Below, piece after piece: positions 9,838 to 63,250 of a stretch of 64,000 nucleotides of DNA. Both the position numbers and the translations under genes were made by a program. This DNA is from Janibacter alkaliphilus (GTDB lineage: Bacteria > Actinomycetota > Actinomycetes > Actinomycetales > Dermatophilaceae), in the NCBI RefSeq assembly GCF_013408565.1, contig NZ_JACBZX010000001.1, positions 2,976,001-3,040,000 of the forward strand. Direction: 5' to 3'. Within the stretch, counting starts at the first letter, position 1; the number at the start of each line of letters is the position of its first letter. The notes below the pieces were generated by a model. The model did no database searches. It worked only from the letters and a program-made list of their open reading frames with translations, and was not told the DNA's origin.

Positions 9838-10439
9838 GGCTGCACATCCTTCACCACGGTCTCGAAGGCCCCGACGGCGCGGGGGTCCGGGTCGATCCGC
9901 GGGCCTGGTGCGGGGTCCTGGCCGGAGAGCACCCGGGCCCCGGGCAGACCGAGCACCTGGGCGGCCTCGACCAGCCACTCGCGCTGGGTGAGGTCGGTGC
10001 GTCGCCACAGGTCGGTGATCTCGGCCAGCCGGATCCGGCGCTGCGGCGCCGCCGAGGCGAGCACCCGGTGCAGGTCCTGCGGGCGCAGCGCCGGCAGCTC
10101 GGGCCCGGGCCGGACCTCGCGCTCGACGCCGCGCAGCGCCCAGCGCCGGACGGTCCGCCAGCCGGCGGCCTGCGCGGTGATCACCGCGGCATCGTCGATG
10201 ACGAAGAGCCCGATCGTCGGCGACTGCCGCGGGCCGACGTGCCGGGACGCCAGCAGGGTGAGCGCGTCGTCGTAGGGCGCCGCGGCGGCGGTGACCGCGC
10301 TCGCCGGGGTGACCATCGTCCAGGCCGGGTGCTCCCCGACGTGGCAGGGGACGACCCCGCGGCGGACCCACTCCGCCGCGCGGGCGGCCCCGCCGGAGAG
10401 CAGCACGAGACCGACTCCGCGGGCGGCGGGGTCGGCCAC
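9834..10439 (-). CDS. Conserved hypothetical protein between hisB and hisH
   Basis: I do not recognise this 201-residue protein. It has no signal peptide, membrane segment or known catalytic motif. It is rich in Arg and Trp and has an alpha/beta pattern: [18 protein letters not shown] at the start and [20 protein letters not shown] in the middle. It starts at GTG 10439, two bases after the hisB stop, and its stop overlaps the hisH start, so it is a fully embedded part of the his operon. That placement suggests a role tied to histidine synthesis or to the glutaminase step, but nothing in the sequence shows it. Confidence 0.6.
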
Positions 10440-53652: not shown

Positions 53653-53827
53653 CCTCGGCTCCCCCTGTCGCGCGGCGTCGTCGTGCCGGTGCCGCCCCCG
53701 CGGACGGCACCGACCCTCGACCGTAGGCGGCTTCCCGGTGCGACGCACCGTGAGCGCACGAACGTTCAGCACGTGAGATCCGTTGCCGCGCAGATCAGGT
53801 CGCGCGGAGAGGACGTCACGCTGGTCG

Positions 53828-53901
53828 TGGGGCGGCTGGGGCTTGAACCCAGGACCGACGGATTATGAGTCCGCTGCTCTGACCGACTGAGCTACCGCCC
53901 C
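53828..53901 (-). tRNA. tRNA with CAT anticodon (elongator Met or Ile2)
   Basis: The 74-base minus-strand cloverleaf has a GGGGCGG/CCGCCCC acceptor stem, discriminator A, an AGCTCAG D-stem, and the anticodon loop CTCATAA. The paired first base excludes initiator tRNA. CAT can be elongator Met, or Ile2 if the C is converted to lysidine; the sequence alone does not settle it. CCA is not encoded. It lies about 300 bases left of the integrated element and is not its attachment site. Confidence 0.93.
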
Positions 53902-53984: not shown

Positions 53985-54206
53985 TCAGAACCGACGCAGG
54001 TAGGGGATCACCCAGCCGCCACCCGCGTGGGCCGTCGCGGACGAGGTCGTCGTGTAGCGCTGGGTGGTGGTGCGGTCCCAGCGACCCCAGCGCCAGACCG
54101 CGCCACGGTCGAGCACCTCGTAGCTCTCTCCCCCGTCGTCGCTGAGGGCCTGGTGCGCGACGAGCTTCACCGTGCCGGCCGGGGTGACCGTGCGCACGTA
54201 CCGCAT
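53985..54206 (-). CDS. Small conserved host protein at the left junction of the element
   Basis: The 73-residue protein (MRYVRTVTPAGTVKLVAHQ start, YEVLDRGAVWRWGRWDRTTTQRY middle) is basic and Trp/Arg-rich, and the family was not recognised. Its ATG lies inside the attL crossover, so the codons upstream now come from the element. In the rebuilt pre-insertion sequence an in-frame GTG would add VERVRLAH before this Met. Either start is possible. The insertion therefore changed the 5' end or the promoter region of the gene. Confidence 0.6.
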   Translation of the reverse strand: MRYVRTVTPAGTVKLVAHQALSDDGGESYEVLDRGAVWRWGRWDRTTTQRYTTTSSATAHAGGGWVIPYLRRF

Positions 54207-54220
54207 ATCGTGGTTGCAAC
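54195..54220. other. attL, left junction of the integrated element
   Basis: The host half ends ACGTACCGC, then ATAT (54205-54208), then the element half CGTGGTTGCAAC. Paired with attR, the outer halves rebuild CGCATATGCG (attB) and the inner halves rebuild an attP with CAACC and GGTTG arms around CGATATCG. The serine integrase gene starts within 80 bases, as is usual for attP-proximal integrases. Confidence 0.82.
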
Positions 54221-54280
54221 GCCCGTTCACGTAAGCTTGGTTGCATGGTCGAACTGGTAGCGCTGAGGAAGACGAACGAG

Positions 54281-55681
54281 GTGGCGGCGTACGTCCGCGC
54301 CTCGATGGATCGCAAGGGTGATCGGTGGACCGTCGAGACCCAGTTGCGCAAGATCAGGGCGCTCGCTGAGGCCAAGGACTGGGAGGTCGTCGAGGTCTAC
54401 GACGATAACGCCGTGTCGGCGACCAAGAAGCGCCGCGCTGGCACACGGTGGGCCGAGATGCTGGACGATGCCCGCGCGGGCCGGTTCTCGATGGTGGTCG
54501 CCGTGGACATGGACCGGCTCCTGCGCAGCACGAAAGACCTCAACACGCTGATCGACCTCGGTCTGCGCGTCGTCACCGTGGACGGCGAGATCGACCTCTC
54601 GACGGCGGACGGCGAGTTCCGCGCGACGATGCTCGCGGCTCTCGCCCGCTTCGAGGCCCGACGCAAGGCTGAGCGTCAGATCAGGTCGAACGAGCGCCGT
54701 CGTGCCGAGGGCATACCCACGTCCGCCTGGAAGGCGTTCGGCTGGACGCGTGAGGGCGAGCTGATCGAGGAGGAGGCAGAGGCCGTCCGGCGAGCCTTCG
54801 ATGCGTTCCTCGGCGAGCCATCGCTGTCGATCCGGCGCATCCGCGAGGACCTGAACAGCGCTGGTCACCTCACCGCCCGCGGCTCGGAATTCTCCGTCGA
54901 TGCCGTGCGCTACCTGCTCGCGAACCCGCTTTACTGTGGCTACATCAAGCACTACGCATCCGGCGAGCTGTACCCGGTGCAGGGCGAGGCGTTCCCGCCC
55001 ATCGTCAGCGAGCAGACGTGGCGGACCGCGGTGGCGAAGCTGGAGGACAACGTGCGGAGGTCGGCCAGGCAGGGCAACCAGCCGAAATACCTCCTGTCGA
55101 CGATCGGGCTGTGCGGGAAGTGCGGTGCGACGCTCGTCTCGGGGACGAACAGCCGCAAGCAGCCGACGTATCGCTGCGGCGAGCAGTTCCACCTCACCCG
55201 CCAACGCGAGCCCGTCGATGCGATGGTCACCGAGGCAGTGCTCACCCGCCTGTCGTCGGTGGACGTGCACGACCTCGTGATGCCGCAGGAGGACGACGGG
55301 CCGGACCGCGAGGAGCTGCTGACCGAGCGGAACGCCCTGGTCGAGCGCGTCAAGGAGCTGAGCCCGCTGCTGCGCGACATCCATCAGCCGGTCCTGGAGA
55401 TCACCGCGGCGATCAACGACGTGAAGGTCCGCATCGACGAGATCGACGCGGAGCTGCTCGACCGCTCGGTATCCGTGGCGGCGAAGCTGCTGGCAGACGT
55501 GGAGGAGGCGGTCGGCACCGCGGAGCGTCGCGAGGTTGTCGAGTCGAAGTGGAAGGCGTTGGACATAGACCGCCGCCGGATGCTCGTGGACGAGCTGGTG
55601 ACTGTGACCATCGAGCCCATCGCGCCCGGTCACGTGAAGTTCGACCCCGACCTCATTCGCATAGAGCCGCGTCGCGACTGA
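54281..55681 (+). CDS. int: Large serine recombinase (integrase)
   Basis: The protein of about 466 residues catalyses site-specific integration through a Ser-DNA intermediate. It has the N-terminal resolvase domain AYVRASMDR with nucleophile Ser8 from this start, YDDNAVSATKKRRAG, and DMDRLLRSTKDLNTLIDLGLRV. A recombinase domain follows (WKAFGWTREGELIEEEAEAVRRAFDAFL), then a zinc ribbon with CGKC and YRC, and a C-terminal coiled coil. GTG 54281 has GAGGAAG nine bases upstream and is preferred; ATG 54245 would add 12 residues but lacks a binding site. Confidence 0.95.
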   Translation: MAAYVRASMDRKGDRWTVETQLRKIRALAEAKDWEVVEVYDDNAVSATKKRRAGTRWAEMLDDARAGRFSMVVAVDMDRLLRSTKDLNTLIDLGLRVVTVDGEIDLSTADGEFRATMLAALARFEARRKAERQIRSNERRRAEGIPTSAWKAFGWTREGELIEEEAEAVRRAFDAFLGEPSLSIRRIREDLNSAGHLTARGSEFSVDAVRYLLANPLYCGYIKHYASGELYPVQGEAFPPIVSEQTWRTAVAKLEDNVRRSARQGNQPKYLLSTIGLCGKCGATLVSGTNSRKQPTYRCGEQFHLTRQREPVDAMVTEAVLTRLSSVDVHDLVMPQEDDGPDREELLTERNALVERVKELSPLLRDIHQPVLEITAAINDVKVRIDEIDAELLDRSVSVAAKLLADVEEAVGTAERREVVESKWKALDIDRRRMLVDELVTVTIEPIAPGHVKFDPDLIRIEPRRD

Positions 55682-55722
55682 CTCATGAGTCAACTCGTCA
55701 TTGCAATGGTGAGTCGACTCGT
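55679..55722. promoter_or_regulatory. Palindromes and direct repeats after int (operator candidate)
   Basis: TGACTCATGAGTCA (55679-55692) is a 14-bp palindrome covering the int stop, and GAGTCGACTC (55711-55720) is a 10-bp palindrome. A 13-base motif TGAGTC(A/G)ACTCGT repeats at 55686 and 55710, 24 bases apart. The stretch lies in the 181-base gap before the small regulator genes, so it may bind the HTH protein at 56075. This is an inference. Confidence 0.5.
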
Positions 55723-55862
55723 GGGAGAGTGGTTGCAGACAAGAAGATCCCACCGGGGCCGCGACTTAGAAGCGCGGGGTTCTGCTCCCGGATGAGTAGC
55801 CGGTCAAACAGCCCAACTACCGTGGCGGGGAACCGGAAGATACTCATATCTGAGGACTTCCG

Positions 55863-56075
55863 ATGTCTGTCGTTATCGACGTTCCCCGCGCATCCGCGCT
55901 TGACTGCCCTGCTCTCGATCAGGACTCGTCTCCCGTTCCGCATGCTGATGGGCTCGATCCCGTCATCGCCGCCGCCCGCGCCGCCGGTCGCCGAGCCGGT
56001 GAGCGCCTGGCACTCACTCCGCTGACGCCGCGACAGCGCGCCGCCGTCGCCGCCGTGATGGGCGGTGGTCGCTGA
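55863..56075 (+). CDS. Small element protein, unknown function
   Basis: The 70-residue protein (MSVVIDVPRASALDCP start) has an Ala/Arg-rich helix (VIAAARAAGRRAGERLALTPLTPRQRAAVAAVMG) and no known motif. GAGGA lies seven bases before the ATG, and the stop overlaps the next ATG (TGATG). It may be a plasmid copy-control or accessory protein, but nothing proves that. Confidence 0.55.
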   Translation: MSVVIDVPRASALDCPALDQDSSPVPHADGLDPVIAAARAAGRRAGERLALTPLTPRQRAAVAAVMGGGR

Positions 56076-56323
56076 TGAGCGCGAACTCCGCCGCCTTCGA
56101 TCACCTGACCAGCTTCCGCTGGCGACAGGGCGACCCGTCCCTCGCCGATGGCGAGGCCCAGCTCTACGACCTCGGCGTGCTCCGCTCCGTGCTGGAGGAG
56201 GCCGTCGAGATCGCCGTCGCCGACGCCCGCGCCGACGGGGTGACCTGGGCCAGGATCGGCGACGCCCTCGGCGTCACGCATCAGGCTGTCATCAAGCGCT
56301 ACGGCCGGGGCGGTGGTCGCTGA
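56075..56323 (+). CDS. Small helix-turn-helix protein
   Basis: The 82-residue protein has a C-terminal helix-turn-helix: WARIGDALGVTHQAVIKRYG. The N-terminal part is acidic. It overlaps the previous gene by one base and lies upstream of rep, so it may control rep or the element's promoters. The spacing repeats at 55679-55722 could be its binding sites. Confidence 0.7.
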   Translation: MSANSAAFDHLTSFRWRQGDPSLADGEAQLYDLGVLRSVLEEAVEIAVADARADGVTWARIGDALGVTHQAVIKRYGRGGGR

Positions 56324-56682
56324 TGCACGCCGACGCACGCAACCTCAGCACCGCACCCGCCGACCTGACCCCGCCCGGAGGGCCTGGCCTGGCACCCGCC
56401 GAAGGCGGGCTGCCCATCGCCGTGATGACGGTCCGCAGCCGTGCTTCGCACTCCAAGAGTTTCGGGGGCCTCATTCGTTCCTACGGGCGCGGCAAGGGCT
56501 TGTCGATTGCCGCGCCTTGCAACAACGCGCCTGGTCAGAAGCCGATTCCGTCTTCGCTGCGTCGCGTCGCCTCGCGGGTTCATTTGAGGTCTCATTTGGG
56601 GGTCAATACGGGGTCATTTAGGCGCCGCACCCCCTCTGCGGCCCTCCACGCCGCCTGCGACGGGGGTGGTCGCCGTGGCTAA
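56323..56682 (+). CDS. Doubtful ORF overlapping the putative origin
   Basis: A 119-codon frame begins at ATG 56323, overlapping the previous stop (TGATG). It is Arg/Ser/Ala-rich without a motif, spans the iteron-like repeats and overlaps the rep start by 17 bases. It may be a shadow frame over an untranslated origin region. I list it because no other gene fills 56324-56665. Confidence 0.25.
   Translation: MHADARNLSTAPADLTPPGGPGLAPAEGGLPIAVMTVRSRASHSKSFGGLIRSYGRGKGLSIAAPCNNAPGQKPIPSSLRRVASRVHLRSHLGVNTGSFRRRTPSAALHAACDGGGRRG
56580..56624. other. Iteron-like repeats, candidate replication origin
   Basis: TCATTT-type units begin at 56580, 56592, 56603 (variant TCAATA) and 56614, with steps of 12, 11 and 11 bases and a G-rich tail (GAGG, GGGG, GGGG, GGCG) in each. 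The phase is about one helical turn. The site lies 42 bases before the rep start and is lower in GC than its surroundings, as in initiator-binding regions. Confidence 0.55.
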
Positions 56683-58087
56683 GCAGGAGAACAACCCGAC
56701 GAGCATCGGGCTCACGCAGTACCTCGATCCGTCGTACTGGACCTGGGCTGCCGAGGACCCGAACGGGGCCGCGCTGCTCGAGCAGGGAGCCGGGGCGATC
56801 CTCGCCTACGTCGCGCAGCGGCTCGAGGCCATCGGCTGCGAGGTCATCGAGGCCTACGGAATCGTGCACGACAAGGATGAGCGCGAGGTCTGGAGCGACA
56901 CGGAGAAGGCTCTGGTGGTCGAGCCGAAGCCCGATCACCTGCACGCGGTCATCAAGTTCGCCAGCCGTGCGAAGAGCGCGCCGCTGGCTCGGCTCGCGTT
57001 CGGCATCGGCGTCGAGCCCCAGTACGTCGAGAAGCCGGGCCGCGGTCGGTACGCCTTCGACAACATGCTGTCGTACCTGACTCACGTGAAGTATGCGGAC
57101 AAGCATCAGTACGCGCCGTCGGAGGTCGCCACGGTGCGCGGGCCGGACTACCTCGGGATCGACGCCCAGCGCCGGGAGACCTGGCTCAAGGGGCGCGCCC
57201 ACGTGAAGAAGAAGGTCGTCGCGGAGAACTTCGAGGACATGCGGGAGCGGGTGCTGCAGGGCGAAATCACGCGGGATCAGATCATGCTCACGGACGAACT
57301 GTTCGACATCTACTCGCGGCATCAGCGGGAGATCGACGACGCGCTGTCGGCCTACGGCCAGCGCCGCGCGTACCGGGCGGCCGCGAAGCTGCGCGCCGGT
57401 GCCTTCTCGACGCACGTGGTGTTCGTCCACGGGGATGCCGGGATCGGCAAGACTCGGTTCGCAACGGATTTCTTCACCGAGGCGATTAGCGCGGCCAATG
57501 CACATGGCGAGCGGTGGCAGGTCTACCGTGCCGCGACGGGGAACCCATTGGATGACTGGCGGGGCGAGGAGGTGCTGCTGCTGGACGATCTGCGGGCCTC
57601 GGCGATGGACGCGAACGATTGGCTGCTGCTGCTCGATCCGTATAACGCCTCGCCTGCGAAGGCTCGGTACAAGAACAAGGGCGAGGTGGCTCCGCGCCTC
57701 ATCGTGATTACGGCGACGATCGAGCCGGTCGAGTTCTTCTACTACGCCCGCCAGAAGGGCAACGTGGACGAGGCGCTGGACCAGTTCATCCGCCGCCTGG
57801 CGTCGGTCGTGAAGGTCTACCGCGCCGACGACATCAACCGCTACCTCGTGCAGCACATCGGGAAGATCGAGCCCTACGAGTGGCACCAGTGCAGCATCCC
57901 GACCGCCGCGCACACGCCCGGCATGTACGGCAACGCGTACCACCAGAACGCCGGGTCGCGGGAACTGACGTACGGTCCGGAGACCTCGGCGGAACACGAC
58001 GCGGACGGTGCGGTCGCGGAGCTGCTCAGCGGGCTCGCGGTGCGAAGTCCGGACGTGCCGCTGGCGCTGATCGAAGGTGCCGCATGA
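56666..58087 (+). CDS. rep: Replication initiator: HUH endonuclease plus P-loop helicase (CRESS-like Rep)
   Basis: The 473-residue protein starts replication by nicking the origin. The N-terminal domain has Rep_2-type motifs: GIVHDKDE (65-72), the metal HUH site HLH at 91-93 in PKPDHLHAVIKF, and the nucleophile Tyr137 in MLSYLTH followed by KYADKHQY. The C-terminal half is a P-loop ATPase with Walker A GDAGIGKT (256-263), Walker B EVLLLDD (302-308) and a motif-C-like LIVITAT. This pairing is the layout of CRESS-DNA virus Reps and bacterial pCRESS plasmids. It overlaps mobC by ATGA. Confidence 0.87.
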   Translation: MVAVAKQENNPTSIGLTQYLDPSYWTWAAEDPNGAALLEQGAGAILAYVAQRLEAIGCEVIEAYGIVHDKDEREVWSDTEKALVVEPKPDHLHAVIKFASRAKSAPLARLAFGIGVEPQYVEKPGRGRYAFDNMLSYLTHVKYADKHQYAPSEVATVRGPDYLGIDAQRRETWLKGRAHVKKKVVAENFEDMRERVLQGEITRDQIMLTDELFDIYSRHQREIDDALSAYGQRRAYRAAAKLRAGAFSTHVVFVHGDAGIGKTRFATDFFTEAISAANAHGERWQVYRAATGNPLDDWRGEEVLLLDDLRASAMDANDWLLLLDPYNASPAKARYKNKGEVAPRLIVITATIEPVEFFYYARQKGNVDEALDQFIRRLASVVKVYRADDINRYLVQHIGKIEPYEWHQCSIPTAAHTPGMYGNAYHQNAGSRELTYGPETSAEHDADGAVAELLSGLAVRSPDVPLALIEGAA

Positions 58088-58674
58088 GCACCGATCAGCA
58101 TTCGCTCTTCCAGGGGGTCGAGGGGGCCGGAGGCCCCTCGCAAGCAGGGCTGGAGGACACGAGCGTCAGCGATGTGTCCGACAGGCCTACTGCTTGCCAC
58201 TCTGGCGTACAGGTGGAGCAGCAGACCGACTCCCAGGTGAACACCGGTCGGGCTGATGCGGAGGCTGTGCGTCAGAGTCACGGCGGCGCGAAGCGTCGTC
58301 GTGGGGGCCGCGCGAAGCTCGATACCGACTTCGGGGAGGAGACGCTCGCGGCGCTTCGCACTCGTGCGAAGCGGCTCGGGCTGGCTCCGAGCACGTGGGT
58401 ACGGACCGTCGTACGCGATGCCCTCCACGCCTCCCGCTCGGAGGAGTTGGACGCCGCCGTGGCGGCGCACCTGCTCGGGGTCGAGGCGCGTGTGCAGGCG
58501 TCGGCGGACGCTCGTGAGCTGGCTGCCCAGGTGCGCCCGCTGGCGATCAACGTCAACGACTTGGATCGCCGCGCGCGCGCCGGTGAGGCGGTGGCGCTGT
58601 CGTCGGAGGTGCCCGAGCTGATCGAGCTGCTGCGCGAGGTCCGCGCCTTGCTCGGGGATCGGACGGCCGCATGA
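58084..58674 (+). CDS. mobC: MobC-type mobilization accessory protein
   Basis: The 196-residue protein has a disordered first 70 residues, then a ribbon-helix-helix-like DNA-binding segment (RAKLDTDFGEETLAALRTRAKRLGLAPSTWVRTVVRDAL) and a C-terminal helical region, as in MobC. MobC helps the relaxase find and open oriT. The ATG overlaps the rep stop (ATGA), and the stop overlaps the relaxase start, so rep-mobC-mobA form one coupled unit. Confidence 0.8.
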   Translation: MSTDQHSLFQGVEGAGGPSQAGLEDTSVSDVSDRPTACHSGVQVEQQTDSQVNTGRADAEAVRQSHGGAKRRRGGRAKLDTDFGEETLAALRTRAKRLGLAPSTWVRTVVRDALHASRSEELDAAVAAHLLGVEARVQASADARELAAQVRPLAINVNDLDRRARAGEAVALSSEVPELIELLREVRALLGDRTAA

Positions 58675-59956
58675 GCACCACCCACTACAGCCGAGCACCA
58701 GCGCCGCCGACACCGAGCGCTATATCCGCGGGAAGGAGGACGAGCGGGGCGTCGCGATCACGTGCGAAGTGCCGGGAGGCCCTGGCGCATTCTCGGCGCG
58801 CGCACGGGCGCTCACGCAGAACACCACGCGCGAGGTCGAGGCGCTGCATTACCGGCAGTCTTTCAGCGACGAGGAGTTCGACCCGAAGAACCCGGAGCAC
58901 GTGCAGCGGGTGAACGATCTCGGCTATCAGCTCGCGAAGAAGATGCATCCGGATTCCGACTGCCTCGTGGTCAGTCATGTGGATGGGCGGGGAAAGAAGC
59001 CGCACAATCATATTTTGGTTCTCAATCACAACAACCGTACGGGTAAGGCGCTCTCGGACTATCGCACGTTCCACGACCGCAAGGCCGGGAATCAGAAAGG
59101 CGTGCAGTCGGCGAACGACGAGCTGATGCGCGAGCACGGGCTCTCGGTCGTGAAGCGGCTGGAGCGCGTGCCGAAGGACTGGGAGCTGCGCCGCGAGGAC
59201 TTCGCCGAGGGGTCGCTCGACCGCGAGATGGGCGACCGGATGAGCGCGGCGCTGGCAGATCCCCGCGCGGTGGACAAGGCCGGTCTCGAAGCGGTGATCG
59301 AGGAGCAGAACCAGCAGCTCGTCGATGACGGGGAGCGGGTGCCGCGGATGCGGCTGCACAGCCCCGTCAGCAAGAAGGGCAAGCGCGCCGGTCAGGAGAC
59401 CTGGACGCTCTAGATCGAGGACCGCCGCGGCGAGTCCGGGCGTGCCGAGCGCCGCAAACGCACGAGCGCACTCTCGGCGGACTTCACCCCGGAGGGCGCG
59501 CAGGCGTTCTTCGACTACCACCAGCAGCAGAAGGAGCAGGAACATGAGCGCAGCACTCGACAGGCTGAAGCAGCAGAACGGGCCCGTGCAGTCGCCGCAG
59601 CCGCTCGGCAGTCCGGAGACGATGGAGGCGTTGACCTCGATCCTCACCGCCGTCGAGGCGCAGAACGCGAGGCTCGACCGGCTGGCCGAGCAGCAGAAGA
59701 AGCTCGCGGGGTTCGTGAAGGTCATGGACGAGGAGACGACGAGGCGGCTGGAGCGGATCACGACCCCGGCGTCGACCTCCTCGCCCTCCAGCGACGTGTC
59801 CGCGAGGATCGCGAGTATCGAGAGCAGGCAGAACGAGATCGCGAGCACGCTCGGCGAGTTCGCGCAGAGTCTCAACGGCGAGAGCTTGAACGCCGCGTCG
59901 CGAACCTTGGTCGCGGAGGCGCAGAAGAATCGCGCGGCTACGGCCTCGGCGATTGA
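58671..59956 (+). pseudogene. mobA: Relaxase MobA, broken by a frameshift and an amber codon
   Basis: The frame starts MSTTHYS at 58671, but the conserved next part (AADTERYIRGKEDERGVAITCEVPGGP) lies in a different frame, so one base is missing near 58690. The main frame keeps the relaxase HUH site SHVDGRGKKPHNHILVLNH. A TAG at 59411-59413 interrupts it; the same frame then runs on with ordinary coding-like residues (EDRRGESGRAERRKRTSAL) to a TGA at 59954-59956, overlapping mobB as mobA genes often do. CAG to TAG would explain the amber. The intact protein would have about 428 residues. Nicking is probably lost. Confidence 0.8.
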
Positions 59957-60443
59957 GGGTCTGAAGGTGCAGGCCACAACGAACCAGAAGCTTGTGAGCC
60001 AGGTCGGCGGCGCGGTGCAGCGGATCGAGAAGCGGACTGAGGAACGGGTCGAGAAGGCCGTCGAGCAGGTCGCCGGGGAGGCCTCGGCCACGATGACCGC
60101 GAACCTCGACGCCTCGAACGAGCGCGCCGAGCGGATGATGGCGGCGACGGCGAAGCTCGAAGCGCGTCAGCTCTGGTCGGCCGCCGCTGCGATGTGCCTC
60201 GCCCTGCTGCCGGTGGTCGTGGTCGTCGCCGGGCTCTGGATGGGCATCGCCGGTCTCATCACGGGCGCTCAGTGGGCGCTCGACGTGGACGGGCGCATCT
60301 GGCTCGGCATCGGGCGCTGGCTCGTGGTCTCCGTGGGTCTCGCCGGGGCCGGATACGGGCTCTTCGCGTCCGTCCGCTCGGCAGCCGGTCTCGTGGAGAC
60401 GTGGAAGGGTCGCGGGGTGCCGAAGTGGCCGAGGTGGCGATGA
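59544..60443 (+). CDS. mobB: MobB-like membrane-anchored mobilization protein
   Basis: The 299-residue protein has a long coiled-coil region (about 30-210) and two hydrophobic segments near the C-terminus (CLALLPVVVVVAGLWMGIAGLI and WLVVSVGLAGAGYGLFASV). MobB proteins stabilise the relaxosome and link it to the transfer machinery at the membrane. AAGGAG lies seven bases before the ATG. It overlaps the decayed relaxase frame, as in other plasmids. Confidence 0.7.
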   Translation: MSAALDRLKQQNGPVQSPQPLGSPETMEALTSILTAVEAQNARLDRLAEQQKKLAGFVKVMDEETTRRLERITTPASTSSPSSDVSARIASIESRQNEIASTLGEFAQSLNGESLNAASRTLVAEAQKNRAATASAIEGLKVQATTNQKLVSQVGGAVQRIEKRTEERVEKAVEQVAGEASATMTANLDASNERAERMMAATAKLEARQLWSAAAAMCLALLPVVVVVAGLWMGIAGLITGAQWALDVDGRIWLGIGRWLVVSVGLAGAGYGLFASVRSAAGLVETWKGRGVPKWPRWR

Positions 60444-60461
60444 TGGCTGGATCCGCTCGAG

Positions 60462-60773
60462 CTACCGGTTCCGATCAGCGGTCGAAGGATTCTCGCAGCA
60501 GCCGGTCCTGCGGCCTCGGTGCCGCCGCCCTAACCTGACGAGCATCCCCGCCGTGACGGCCATCACGACGGCGATCCCGGCACCGATGATCCAGGGGTTA
60601 CCGAGGAGCCCACCGACGCCCGCGAGTGCTCCGCCCGCCGCGATGAGCGGCAGGCCGCAACAGAGCAGCAACGGAAGCGCGCAGCATGCCAGCAAGAGCA
60701 GTCCGGTCCCTGCAGCGACGACGGGACCGGCGCGCCGTTCGTCGCGGTCCTGATCGGCGCTCGTCGTCTGCAC
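60462..60773 (-). CDS. MerT-like small mercury transport protein
   Basis: The 103-residue protein has two or three membrane segments and three vicinal Cys pairs: C30-C31 and C38-C39 in ACCALPLLLCCGLP, and C92-C93 after the last helix. Paired cysteines in the first helix and cytoplasmic side are the hallmark of MerT/MerF-type Hg(II) importers, though this sequence differs from the classic forms. It follows merA by 40 bases on the same strand. The GTG start is chosen; no strong binding site was seen. Confidence 0.65.
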   Translation of the reverse strand: MQTTSADQDRDERRAGPVVAAGTGLLLLACCALPLLLCCGLPLIAAGGALAGVGGLLGNPWIIGAGIAVVMAVTAGMLVRLGRRHRGRRTGCCENPSTADRNR

Positions 60774-60813
60774 CTCTTCAGGATGAGATCTCCCCGATTG
60801 CCTGCGCTGCCGG

Positions 60814-62235
60814 TCATGCGCAGCACGACAGCAGCGACGGGTCGGTGGTGAAGGCCTTCGCGGCGATCCGGATGCCCTCGGCCATCGTCAGGTAGGGAGC
60901 CCAGGCGTCGGCGATCTCGGCGACGGTCTTGCCGAGCACGTGGACACCGGCGGCGGCGAGCTCTCCGGCGTCCTTGGCGACGGCGGTCAGGCCGAGGATC
61001 TCGTTCGTGTCGGCGTTCACGACGATCTTGATGAACCCGCGGGTGTCGCGGTTGACCAGCGCGCGGGGCACGTGGTGCAGCGGCAGGACGCGGCAATCGC
61101 AGCGGATCCCCGCAGCAAGCACTTCCTTCTCGGTCATCCCGACCGCTCCGATCGCGGGCCCGGTGAACGTCACCCGCGGCAGGCGGGAATAGTCGACGGC
61201 ACGATCGGCGTCGGCGAACGCGTTCTCGGCGACGAGGGTGCCGTGGTGGGCGGCGACGTAGACGAACTCGGGGTGCCCGGTCACGTCGCCCGCGGCCCAG
61301 ATCCGCGGGTTCGAGGACCGCAGCCGGTCGGAGACGACCACCTCGCCGGAGTCCCCGGTCTTCACCCCGACCGCATCGAGGTTCAGGCCATCGGTGACGG
61401 GACGGCGTCCGAGGGCGACGAGCACCTGCTCGGCGCGGAACTCCTGCGAGTCGCCGGACACGTCGGCGGTCACGACGGCCTCGCCTCCCGTGCCGCGGGA
61501 GACCCGGGTGGGCACCACGCGGCGGACGACGCGGATGCCTTCGTCGGCGAACGCCTCCTGAAGCGCCTTGGACACCTCCGGCTCCTCCTTCGAGGCGAGC
61601 CGGGACCGCACCAGCAGCGTGACCTGCGAGCCGAGGCGAGCGAACAGCTGCGCCTGCTCCAGGGCGACGTAGCCGCCGCCGAGCACCAGCAACGACTCAG
61701 GAACCTCAGCGAGTTCCATTGCCGTGGTCGAGGTCAGGTACCCGGTCTCCTCCAGGCCGTCGATCGGCGGAGCCCACGGGCGAGAACCAGTCGCGACCAG
61801 GAAGTGGTCGGCCTCGATGGTCTCGACCGTCCCGTCGCCGGCGATGATCTCCAGTACCGGGGCGTCTGGGCCGCCGGCGAACGATGCATCGCCGCGGCGG
61901 ACCTGCCAGCCGTAGGAGTCGGCGACGTCGGCGTACTTCTCGCCGCGCAGCGACTCGACCAGCGCCTGCTTCCCGGCGATCAGCGCAGGCATGTCCACTG
62001 TCTCAGCCGTCGCCGCGATCCCCGGGAACCGGCCTGAAGCGTCGGCGGCGACGTGACGGGTGTCGGCAGCGGCGATGAGGGCCTTCGACGGCACGCAGCC
62101 GGTGTTCACGCAGGTGCCGCCGAGCGTCCCGCGCTCGATCATCACCACCGACTTGCCGAGCGTGGTCGCACGGATGGCGGCGGCGAATGCTCCGCCTCCG
62201 GATCCGATGATGGCGAGGTCGTACTTGGTAGGCAT
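60814..62235 (-). CDS. merA: Mercuric reductase
   Basis: The 473-residue FAD enzyme reduces Hg(II) to volatile Hg(0) with NADPH. The FAD loop is IIGSGGGAFAAAIRA, the redox pair is Cys42 and Cys47 in GGTCVNTGCVPSK, and the C-terminal metal-binding pair Cys471-Cys472 (SCCA) is present; these define MerA among the disulfide reductases. The N-terminal HMA metal domain is absent, as in many actinobacterial MerA. AGGAG precedes the ATG. It is divergent from merR across 105 bases. Confidence 0.93.
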   Translation of the reverse strand: MPTKYDLAIIGSGGGAFAAAIRATTLGKSVVMIERGTLGGTCVNTGCVPSKALIAAADTRHVAADASGRFPGIAATAETVDMPALIAGKQALVESLRGEKYADVADSYGWQVRRGDASFAGGPDAPVLEIIAGDGTVETIEADHFLVATGSRPWAPPIDGLEETGYLTSTTAMELAEVPESLLVLGGGYVALEQAQLFARLGSQVTLLVRSRLASKEEPEVSKALQEAFADEGIRVVRRVVPTRVSRGTGGEAVVTADVSGDSQEFRAEQVLVALGRRPVTDGLNLDAVGVKTGDSGEVVVSDRLRSSNPRIWAAGDVTGHPEFVYVAAHHGTLVAENAFADADRAVDYSRLPRVTFTGPAIGAVGMTEKEVLAAGIRCDCRVLPLHHVPRALVNRDTRGFIKIVVNADTNEILGLTAVAKDAGELAAAGVHVLGKTVAEIADAWAPYLTMAEGIRIAAKAFTTDPSLLSCCA

Positions 62236-62277
62236 CGCTGCTCCTGTCAGTCCTTGGCTTTCTGCTCTGTCTCAGCC

Positions 62278-62309
62278 ATACTGGACCTTCCAGTGCAGGG
62301 GAAGGTCAA
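62278..62309 (-). promoter_or_regulatory. merA promoter with MerR operator in a 20-bp spacer
   Basis: On the minus strand, -35 TTGACC (62304-62309) and -10 CAGTAT (62278-62283) are 20 bases apart, longer than the ideal 17 and typical of MerR-activated promoters. The operator is a perfect 8-bp inverted repeat, GACCTTCC at 62284-62291 and GGAAGGTC at 62300-62307, filling the spacer. MerR would twist this DNA to allow transcription when Hg(II) binds. Confidence 0.8.
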
Positions 62310-62340
62310 GCCTGCTCCTGCCGAACGATCGGAGGCCGCG

Positions 62341-62730
62341 ATGCGCATCGGAGAACTCGCCGAACGCGCGGGCACCACGGCGAAGACGCTCCGCTTCTAC
62401 GAGGGGCAGGGGCTGCTTCCGCCGGCCGAGCGCACGCAGTCCGGCTATCGCGACTACGCACCCGAGACGGTCGCCCGGATCGACTTCGTCCACCGCGGCC
62501 AGGCCGCGGGCCTCACCCTCGCCCAGATCCGCCAGATCCTCGACATCCGCGACGGCGGCCATGCGCCCTGCGAGCACGTGCGCGACCTGCTTGACGTGCG
62601 CCTCGCTGAGATCGAGCAGCAGATCGCGCAGCTCTCCGTGCTGCGCGACACTATCGCGGACCTCAGACAGGACGCCGCGCACCCGGACCCTGAAACGTGC
62701 AGCACCGATCAAGTGTGTAGGTACTTGTAG
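62341..62730 (+). CDS. merR: MerR family mercury-responsive regulator
   Basis: The 129-residue protein has the MerR winged HTH (MRIGELAERAGTTAKTLRFYEGQGLLPP), a dimer helix, and a C-terminal metal-binding set: Cys77 in PCEHVRDLLD, and Cys120 and Cys126 in TCSTDQVCRYL. These match the three ligands of Hg-binding MerR proteins. GGAGG is five bases before the ATG. It reads toward attR, away from merA. Confidence 0.9.
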   Translation: MRIGELAERAGTTAKTLRFYEGQGLLPPAERTQSGYRDYAPETVARIDFVHRGQAAGLTLAQIRQILDIRDGGHAPCEHVRDLLDVRLAEIEQQIAQLSVLRDTIADLRQDAAHPDPETCSTDQVCRYL

Positions 62731-62756
62731 ACGACGGTAGCCAATGACTCCAACGC

Positions 62757-62785
62757 TACAACCCCGATATGCGCTAGCCGTACCC
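62757..62785. other. attR, right junction of the integrated element
   Basis: The element half ends CTACAACCCCG, then ATAT (62767-62770), then the host half GCGCTAGCCGTACCC. The TAG stop of the host secreted-protein gene (62774-62776, read on the minus strand) lies in the host half, so that gene keeps its own end. Confidence 0.82.
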
Positions 62786-63250
62786 GCTCCACACCGAGCT
62801 GTCGGTCACCCAGCGGTACCGGTTCACCGGGTCCTTCAGGGTCGTCAGCTCGCCGCCGCGCACGGTGATCACCCGGTGCTCGAAGGTGTGCGCCCCGGCG
62901 CTGGTCATGAGCACCAGCTCGTAGCCGGCGACCCCGTCGATCCGGGCCGCCCCGTAGAAGGGGTTCTCCGTCGCGATGTGCGCCGAGATCGGCGTGCGGG
63001 TGGACATGACCTCGCCGGTGGCGGTGACCACCCGCAGACCCACCGAGCTGGACCAGCGGCCGTGCACGGCGACGGAGTCGCGCTGGCCGTCGCCGTCGAC
63101 GTCGGCGCGGGAGACGATCTCGCAGCCGCTGATCCCGCTGCACGCGTCGTCGCTGGTCGTGGTGCTCGCCTGGGCGCTCGGCATCCCGGCGAGCAGGGTG
63201 GCGGCCGCCCCGATGGTGGCCAGTGCGGTGGTGCGGCGTGCTGCGGACAT
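62774..63250 (-). CDS. Secreted protein with FG-GAP-like calcium-binding repeat
   Basis: The 158-residue protein has a signal peptide (TTALATIGAAATLLAGMPSAQA) and then DVDGDGQRDSVAVHG, a calcium-binding loop as in FG-GAP/VCBS repeats; GYELVLMTSAGAHTF may be a further repeat. It would be exported. The 3' end is at the right junction of the element, but the stop codon belongs to the host side, so it does not appear truncated by the insertion. A frameshift before insertion cannot be excluded. Confidence 0.75.
   Translation of the reverse strand: MSAARRTTALATIGAAATLLAGMPSAQASTTTSDDACSGISGCEIVSRADVDGDGQRDSVAVHGRWSSSVGLRVVTATGEVMSTRTPISAHIATENPFYGAARIDGVAGYELVLMTSAGAHTFEHRVITVRGGELTTLKDPVNRYRWVTDSSVWSGYG

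Follow-up and report, generated by a model that had tools for sequence, protein, structure and literature searches.

A serine-integrase element of Janibacter alkaliphilus with an apparent TA crossover core, from an actinobacterial family found in both orientations at one target codon

Ends of the element and position of the crossover

The window analyzed here, a 64,000-nucleotide stretch of the Janibacter alkaliphilus contig NZ_JACBZX010000001.1, contains a gene for a putative exported DVDGDG protein that is split by an 8,576-bp element carrying a large serine integrase, Rep, a relaxase gene and mercury(II) reductase cargo. Very probably the element is one of an actinobacterial family of integrative and mobilizable elements (IMEs) that recombine at a TA core and enter their target either way round, and in this host it occupies a secondary site. 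Its boundaries, the TA core, the family's usual target, empty copies of that target in congeners and the presence of both orientations are all read from sequence comparisons. The initial annotation of the window had described a serine-integrase element, about 8.56 kb long, whose symmetrical sites adjoin the integrase gene (int). This much stands, and the element falls inside the coordinates stated for it (54195..62785); the annotated crossover and bacterial attachment site (attB) do not stand, and the TA core and the two orientations had been overlooked.

The integrase gene (54245..55681, forward strand, 478 amino acids) encodes both a Resolvase catalytic domain (PF00239, E 1.6e-23) and a Recombinase domain (PF07508, E 5.7e-14) above cut-off and matches the PHROG integrase family phrog_95 (E 1.6e-90), and its zinc-ribbon match (PF13408), at 18.2 bits, is under the cut-off of 25.3; its solved-structure matches include the TP901-1 and A118 integrases. 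It begins 45 bases past the attL core, within the 80 bases that had been claimed. The crossover dinucleotide TA lies at 54199..54200 in attL and at 62775..62776 in attR, where it is exactly what the two sites have in common, with mismatches on either side, and where joining the flanks restores the host reading frame. Adjoining it are the P' arm of attP (CCGCATATCGTGGTTG, 54201..54216, forward strand) and the P arm (CAACCCCGATATGCGC, 62759..62774, forward strand), both identical in eight elements, the former next to differing flanks. Across these arms 14 of 16 positions match about TA, compared with a maximum of 10 among the 508 TA-centred sites of the window; the symmetrical attP of the initial annotation is thus retained, with its centre at TA and not at ATAT.

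The crossover had been placed at ATAT (54205-54208 and 62767-62770), between a palindromic attB and a palindromic attP. All of the junction strings quoted for it are present, and ATAT does occur at both ends, at 54205 and 62767. These two copies are located inside the mirrored attP arms, so that the supposed palindromic attB, CGCATATGCG, consists of two joined attP pieces and not of host DNA, the usual attB of the family being an asymmetric monooxygenase-gene sequence. Joining the flanks at ATAT breaks the host gene, with a stop at residue 158, and the stretch separating ATAT from TA is found again in seven elements of other hosts that have the identical attP and all end at the same TA, which leaves this placement with practically no chance of being correct. 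The flanks can also be joined within CGTACC, a 6-base junction repeat (54197 and 62779), and this yields an in-frame host protein of 227 amino acids, compared with 229 for the TA join. Three congeneric genomes supplied four homologues of the host gene, one of which is cut by a contig end; aligned to these, the TA join scored highest in all four cases (496, 441, 416 and 274), followed by CGTACC (482, 430, 402 and 266) and ATAT (383, 334, 325 and 172). The peptide rejoined at TA, SVWSGYGYVRT, corresponds to SVWSDFGYQRT in a congener, and the joint is free of gaps in the two alignments shown. Since elements with the same attP also end at TA and then continue into monooxygenase sequence, a crossover within CGTACC is extremely improbable.

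One usual target, two orientations

With each species represented by a single genome, a scan produced 70 pattern-matching stretches, from which 54 relatives at 52 distinct loci (designated by L numbers) were obtained. The integrase relatives are 91-99% identical in their best segment, and their named hosts, all Actinomycetota, span 29 genera and 15 families; copies from Gulosibacter, Tessaracoccus and Gordonia match the window element at 98.6% identity over its full length. Integrase genes are identical across five genera, and the family shows recent exchange between distant Actinomycetota. Among phages, all 624 records found were less than 60% identical to the integrase (30.7-33.3% for the best 20 of the 624), and of five attP-like pattern matches in viral contigs, none was accompanied by a tblastn hit (E 1e-5) for any of eight element proteins.

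Of the 52 loci, 47 show their left end, the other five (L077, L078, L081, L083 and L084) being without the 5' part of int; with L053 beginning at a contig end, 46 copies have a left host flank. Nine of the 47 provided no usable right end (L044, L051, L053, L060, L061, L066, L073, L075 and L082), L053 and L061 coming from one metagenome-assembled genome. Where two right ends were candidates, we retained the one with fewer mismatches in L054, L067 and L080, and in L050 and L063 the one continuing into the rest of the monooxygenase gene, though the alternative had fewer mismatches. The 38 elements delimited in addition to the window's are compatible with the same TA boundary, in an end search that itself demanded TA. 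In 22 of the 39 the sequence common to attL and attR is exactly TA, and in the other 17 it is TA with adjoining bases; together with gap-free empty sites, this indicates, at the level of sequence, a 2-bp crossover common to attP and attB and without duplication.

Nearly all copies with a left flank (43 of 46) interrupt a single gene, for a luciferase-like monooxygenase (LLM; PF00296), at an identical TA within the tyrosine codon of the peptide IEVGTGVIDMRYENPLYLAEE. The usual attB, ATGCGC-TA-CGAGAACCC, represents one LLM codon and is asymmetric. For 36 of these copies the assignment was confirmed by the peptide across both ends, and for seven by left-flank DNA only. Empty LLM sites were found in nine of 16 Janibacter genomes: the attB rebuilt from J. 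corallicola, in which its two halves are approximately 9 kb apart, aligns with them, ungapped and at 82-87% identity, over 395-400 of its 400 bases. A protein search of the same 16 genomes recovered nine intact LLM orthologues and the split one, the remaining six, including the window's host, showing only distant relatives (best E in the host 7.1e-9).

Three copies are not, or not wholly, at the LLM site. The host of L076 has no LLM orthologue at E 1e-20, and the flank of L082 is another gene. In L036 (Kocuria carniphila; ends at 9955 and 18499), the left flank is a repeat-containing gene and the right flank the monooxygenase gene, which a search of that genome at E 1e-20 recovered only in its C-terminal part; a deletion or rearrangement beside the element is possible, as is an assembly join.

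The host genome of the window element is a 3.32-Mb single contig, and the absence of the usual target from it indicates that this copy is at a secondary site. The interrupted gene lies on the reverse strand, with its N-terminal part at 62777..63250 and its C-terminal part, a secondary attB half, at 53985..54198, the frame being rejoined at TA. An empty-site comparison, which had been suggested as a check on the initial annotation, was only partly achieved: LLM sites in congeners are gap-free across the joint, and for the window's own target gene the genus offered none (besides the genome itself, flank DNA matched 3 of 15 congeners, each over 30-38 bases), so that at this site the crossover rests on the homologues and the other copies. 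A tRNA-Met gene at 53827-53901, approximately 300 bases to the left of the element, is not its target.

Relative to the LLM gene, int is directed against transcription of the target in 26 of the 43 copies and with it in 17 (binomial p 0.22, uncorrected for host relatedness). Script-based classification had given 24 against, 18 with and 5 unclear; by hand, L038 and L067 were reassigned to the first class, which a further comparison confirmed, and L082 was taken out of the second for its flank in a different gene. Limiting the count to copies with both ends delimited, and leaving L036 outside both this count and the integrase tree, the numbers were 23 and 13 of 36 (p 0.13, likewise uncorrected). 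Nine attP sequences recur among the elements, and seven of these accompany both orientations; for example, L033 (with) shares its attP with L034, L035, L037, L038 and L069 (against). Even five identical int genes are divided, four against and one with. On the integrase tree, orientation takes 11 changes, well-supported branches forcing at least 8 of them. Since shuffling produced values as low in 414 of 500 cases, orientation does not pass down as a clade trait. An asymmetric core and a single orientation are typical of large serine integrases, although not strictly defining; this family has a TA core and a 26:17 division.

Mechanism and competing explanations

Serine integrases set the orientation of their sites only through the asymmetry of two core bases, according to PMC3556126 and PMC3783163 (the latter citing the Bxb1 work of Ghosh 2003), and symmetric-core mutants in the A118 system are reported to give both products, at 64.5/35.5 and 52.5/47.5 (PMC3556126). 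TA is self-complementary, and a natural mixture of about 60/40 fits this rule. We infer that the integrase would recombine the near-symmetric attP (CAACCCCGATATGCGC-TA-CCGCATATCGTGGTTG) with attB at the 2-bp TA core and that, with a self-complementary core and nearly mirrored attP arms, the sites could be ligated in either alignment, so that the element would enter, or flip in place, either way round. The window's host lacks the usual target, and there the element occupies a secondary TA site in the putative exported-protein gene, which it splits. More tentatively, and with somewhat less than even chances, the enzyme may be a naturally non-polar large serine integrase whose TA core is kept across the family, one that integrates either way, flips, and sometimes rearranges its neighbourhood (L036), orientation then serving as a free or selectable switch.

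Several points weigh against the interpretation by a TA core that allows entry either way. The scripts used to find ends demanded TA at both of them, and hence the TA of the other copies depends on gene continuity and empty sites and not on blind discovery. Symmetry of attP in the other elements varies from 8 to 15 of 16 positions, so near-perfect arms are not general, and the orientation count covers this one integrase family. The host of L082 has an intact LLM gene although the copy is inserted elsewhere. Finally, scoring of the window's secondary site with a matrix from 36 LLM sites was mixed, the CGAGAACCCGCT half ranking at 1/408 among TA sites of the window's host DNA, the whole site at 7/408 and the other half at 127/408; as this matrix also reflects coding and codon conservation, integration by recognition of one half of the site is only weakly suggested.

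Insertion both ways would also be expected of a mariner-like transposon that ends in inverted repeats and duplicates its TA target, and the element does have imperfect inverted ends of about 16 bp with TA flanking either side. It encodes a large serine recombinase, no transposase (DDE) domain was detected in the nine element open reading frames (ORFs) scanned, and 43 of 46 copies share the same codon, a preference that TA-targeting transposases are not known to show; we thus regard a transposon as very improbable. Alternatively, the element may integrate with a fixed polarity and reach its second orientation only through later inversion in place, by antiparallel recombination of attL with attR. 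Such an inversion would need a palindromic core likewise and would result in identical junctions, which for this reason do not distinguish a flip at integration from one occurring afterwards. It would have to be so frequent that the int tree shows 8 to 11 switches, excision-type reactions normally require a directionality factor (PMC4111918), and a palindromic core should be non-polar at integration as well, leaving inversion as the sole source of the second orientation unlikely.

Gene content, cargo and known systems

Downstream of int, all on the forward strand, are a conserved ORF of 70 amino acids (55863..56075), which has above 70% coverage and no internal stop in 37 of the 38 other elements and no PHROG match, and a conserved helix-turn-helix (HTH)-like ORF of 82 amino acids (56075..56323; 36 of 38; phrog_686 HTH, E 4.7e-7). 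The shorter one is a candidate directionality factor and the longer a candidate regulator or directionality factor. Rep (56666..58087, forward strand; above 70% coverage in 31 of 38) combines an origin-binding domain (PF01719) with an RNA_helicase domain (PF00910), an arrangement that we take to resemble Rep proteins of CRESS DNA viruses, and among solved structures it is nearest to 9pqj (E 7.9e-7) and 9pqq (E 1.6e-6), two chains that bear the name replication-associated protein; both Rep and these chains are probably CRESS-type. A 196-amino acid protein without a family match is encoded directly ahead of the relaxase (58084..58674, forward strand; 33 of 38) and, from its position, could conceivably have an accessory role in mobilization.

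The relaxase gene (58769..59413, forward strand) has a MobA/VirD2-like nuclease domain (PF03432, E 1.7e-13) and an interrupted frame, 263 amino acids from stop to stop in the window versus 411-539 in 34 of the 38 other elements. It was detected in 35 of these, L074 having another short version, and the search missed it in L047, L049 and L050. A conserved 299-amino acid protein (59544..60443, forward strand), with no family above cut-off, occurs in all 38, with an internal stop in two. No conjugation-pore domain was found in the nine ORFs scanned, smaller ORFs lying outside the scan. The element thus brings along a module for its integration, with att sites that are defined, and a relaxase gene, and no pore of its own was found, as in an IME.

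With phage-type large serine integrases (A118, TP901-1, Bxb1 and phiC31), the system shares the Resolvase and Recombinase domains, int beside attP, an attB dissimilar to a symmetric attP, and a 2-bp crossover. Its natural core differs in being self-complementary TA: the A118 core is an asymmetric GG (PMC3556126), and that of phiJoe is predicted as 5'-GG (PMC5311408). A putative serine-recombinase IME of an actinobacterium, IME2287 of Rhodococcus equi, is similar in having inverted and direct repeats and in being repeated, sometimes inverted, and differs in its 14.3-kb size, ParA/RepA replication, lack of a relaxase and TTAC direct repeat, as given in PMC10669575. Our element is set apart from serine-integrase IMEs of Firmicutes (PMC5704250) by its Rep, actinobacterial hosts, LLM target and two orientations. 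While large serine integrases, IMEs and mercury-resistance (mer) modules are already known, the literature searched yielded no natural palindromic core combined with both orientations at a single site; among the matches listed, there was no account of the family or of a large serine integrase with such a core, subscription journals and preprints being outside the coverage. The control of orientation by the central dinucleotide came from mutants, and nature appears to have repeated the experiment across dozens of hosts, obtaining the mixture that was predicted. Beyond the classic phage set, the family supplies a further integrase whose target is defined and conserved. Like the window element, the Firmicutes IMEs reportedly combine an integrase, a relaxase, small size and cargo.

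The cargo stretch of the window element extends from about 60440 to attR and encodes a small hydrophobic protein of 103 amino acids (60462..60773, reverse strand; no family above cut-off), the mercury(II) reductase MerA (60814..62235, reverse strand; TIGR02053, 559 bits against a cut-off of 454) and a MerR-type metal regulator (62341..62730, forward strand; PF13411 and PF09278), for which all 18 NCBIfam models listed score below their own cut-offs. Similar mer modules are found on actinobacterial plasmids such as that of Micrococcus luteus (NZ_CP043850), merA and the regulator being 92-93% identical in DNA in the best four records; only cargo is shared, with all 16 plasmid records found by megablast matching inside the cargo part. 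The gene merA is present in 14 of the 38 other elements. The slot beside attR (60440-62774) differs between elements sharing one backbone, and in eight other sampled elements it contains a P-type ATPase (L039, L056 and L064), cation-efflux (L048), MFS (L046 and L068), chorismate-mutase (L054) or HXXEE (L063) gene. The family thus displays an exchangeable slot for metal resistance or efflux that moves among Actinomycetota. In L050, an internal copy of the right end of a mer element is located approximately 8727 bases past the left core, within a longer element, which suggests that cargo was gained there by accretion at the right end.

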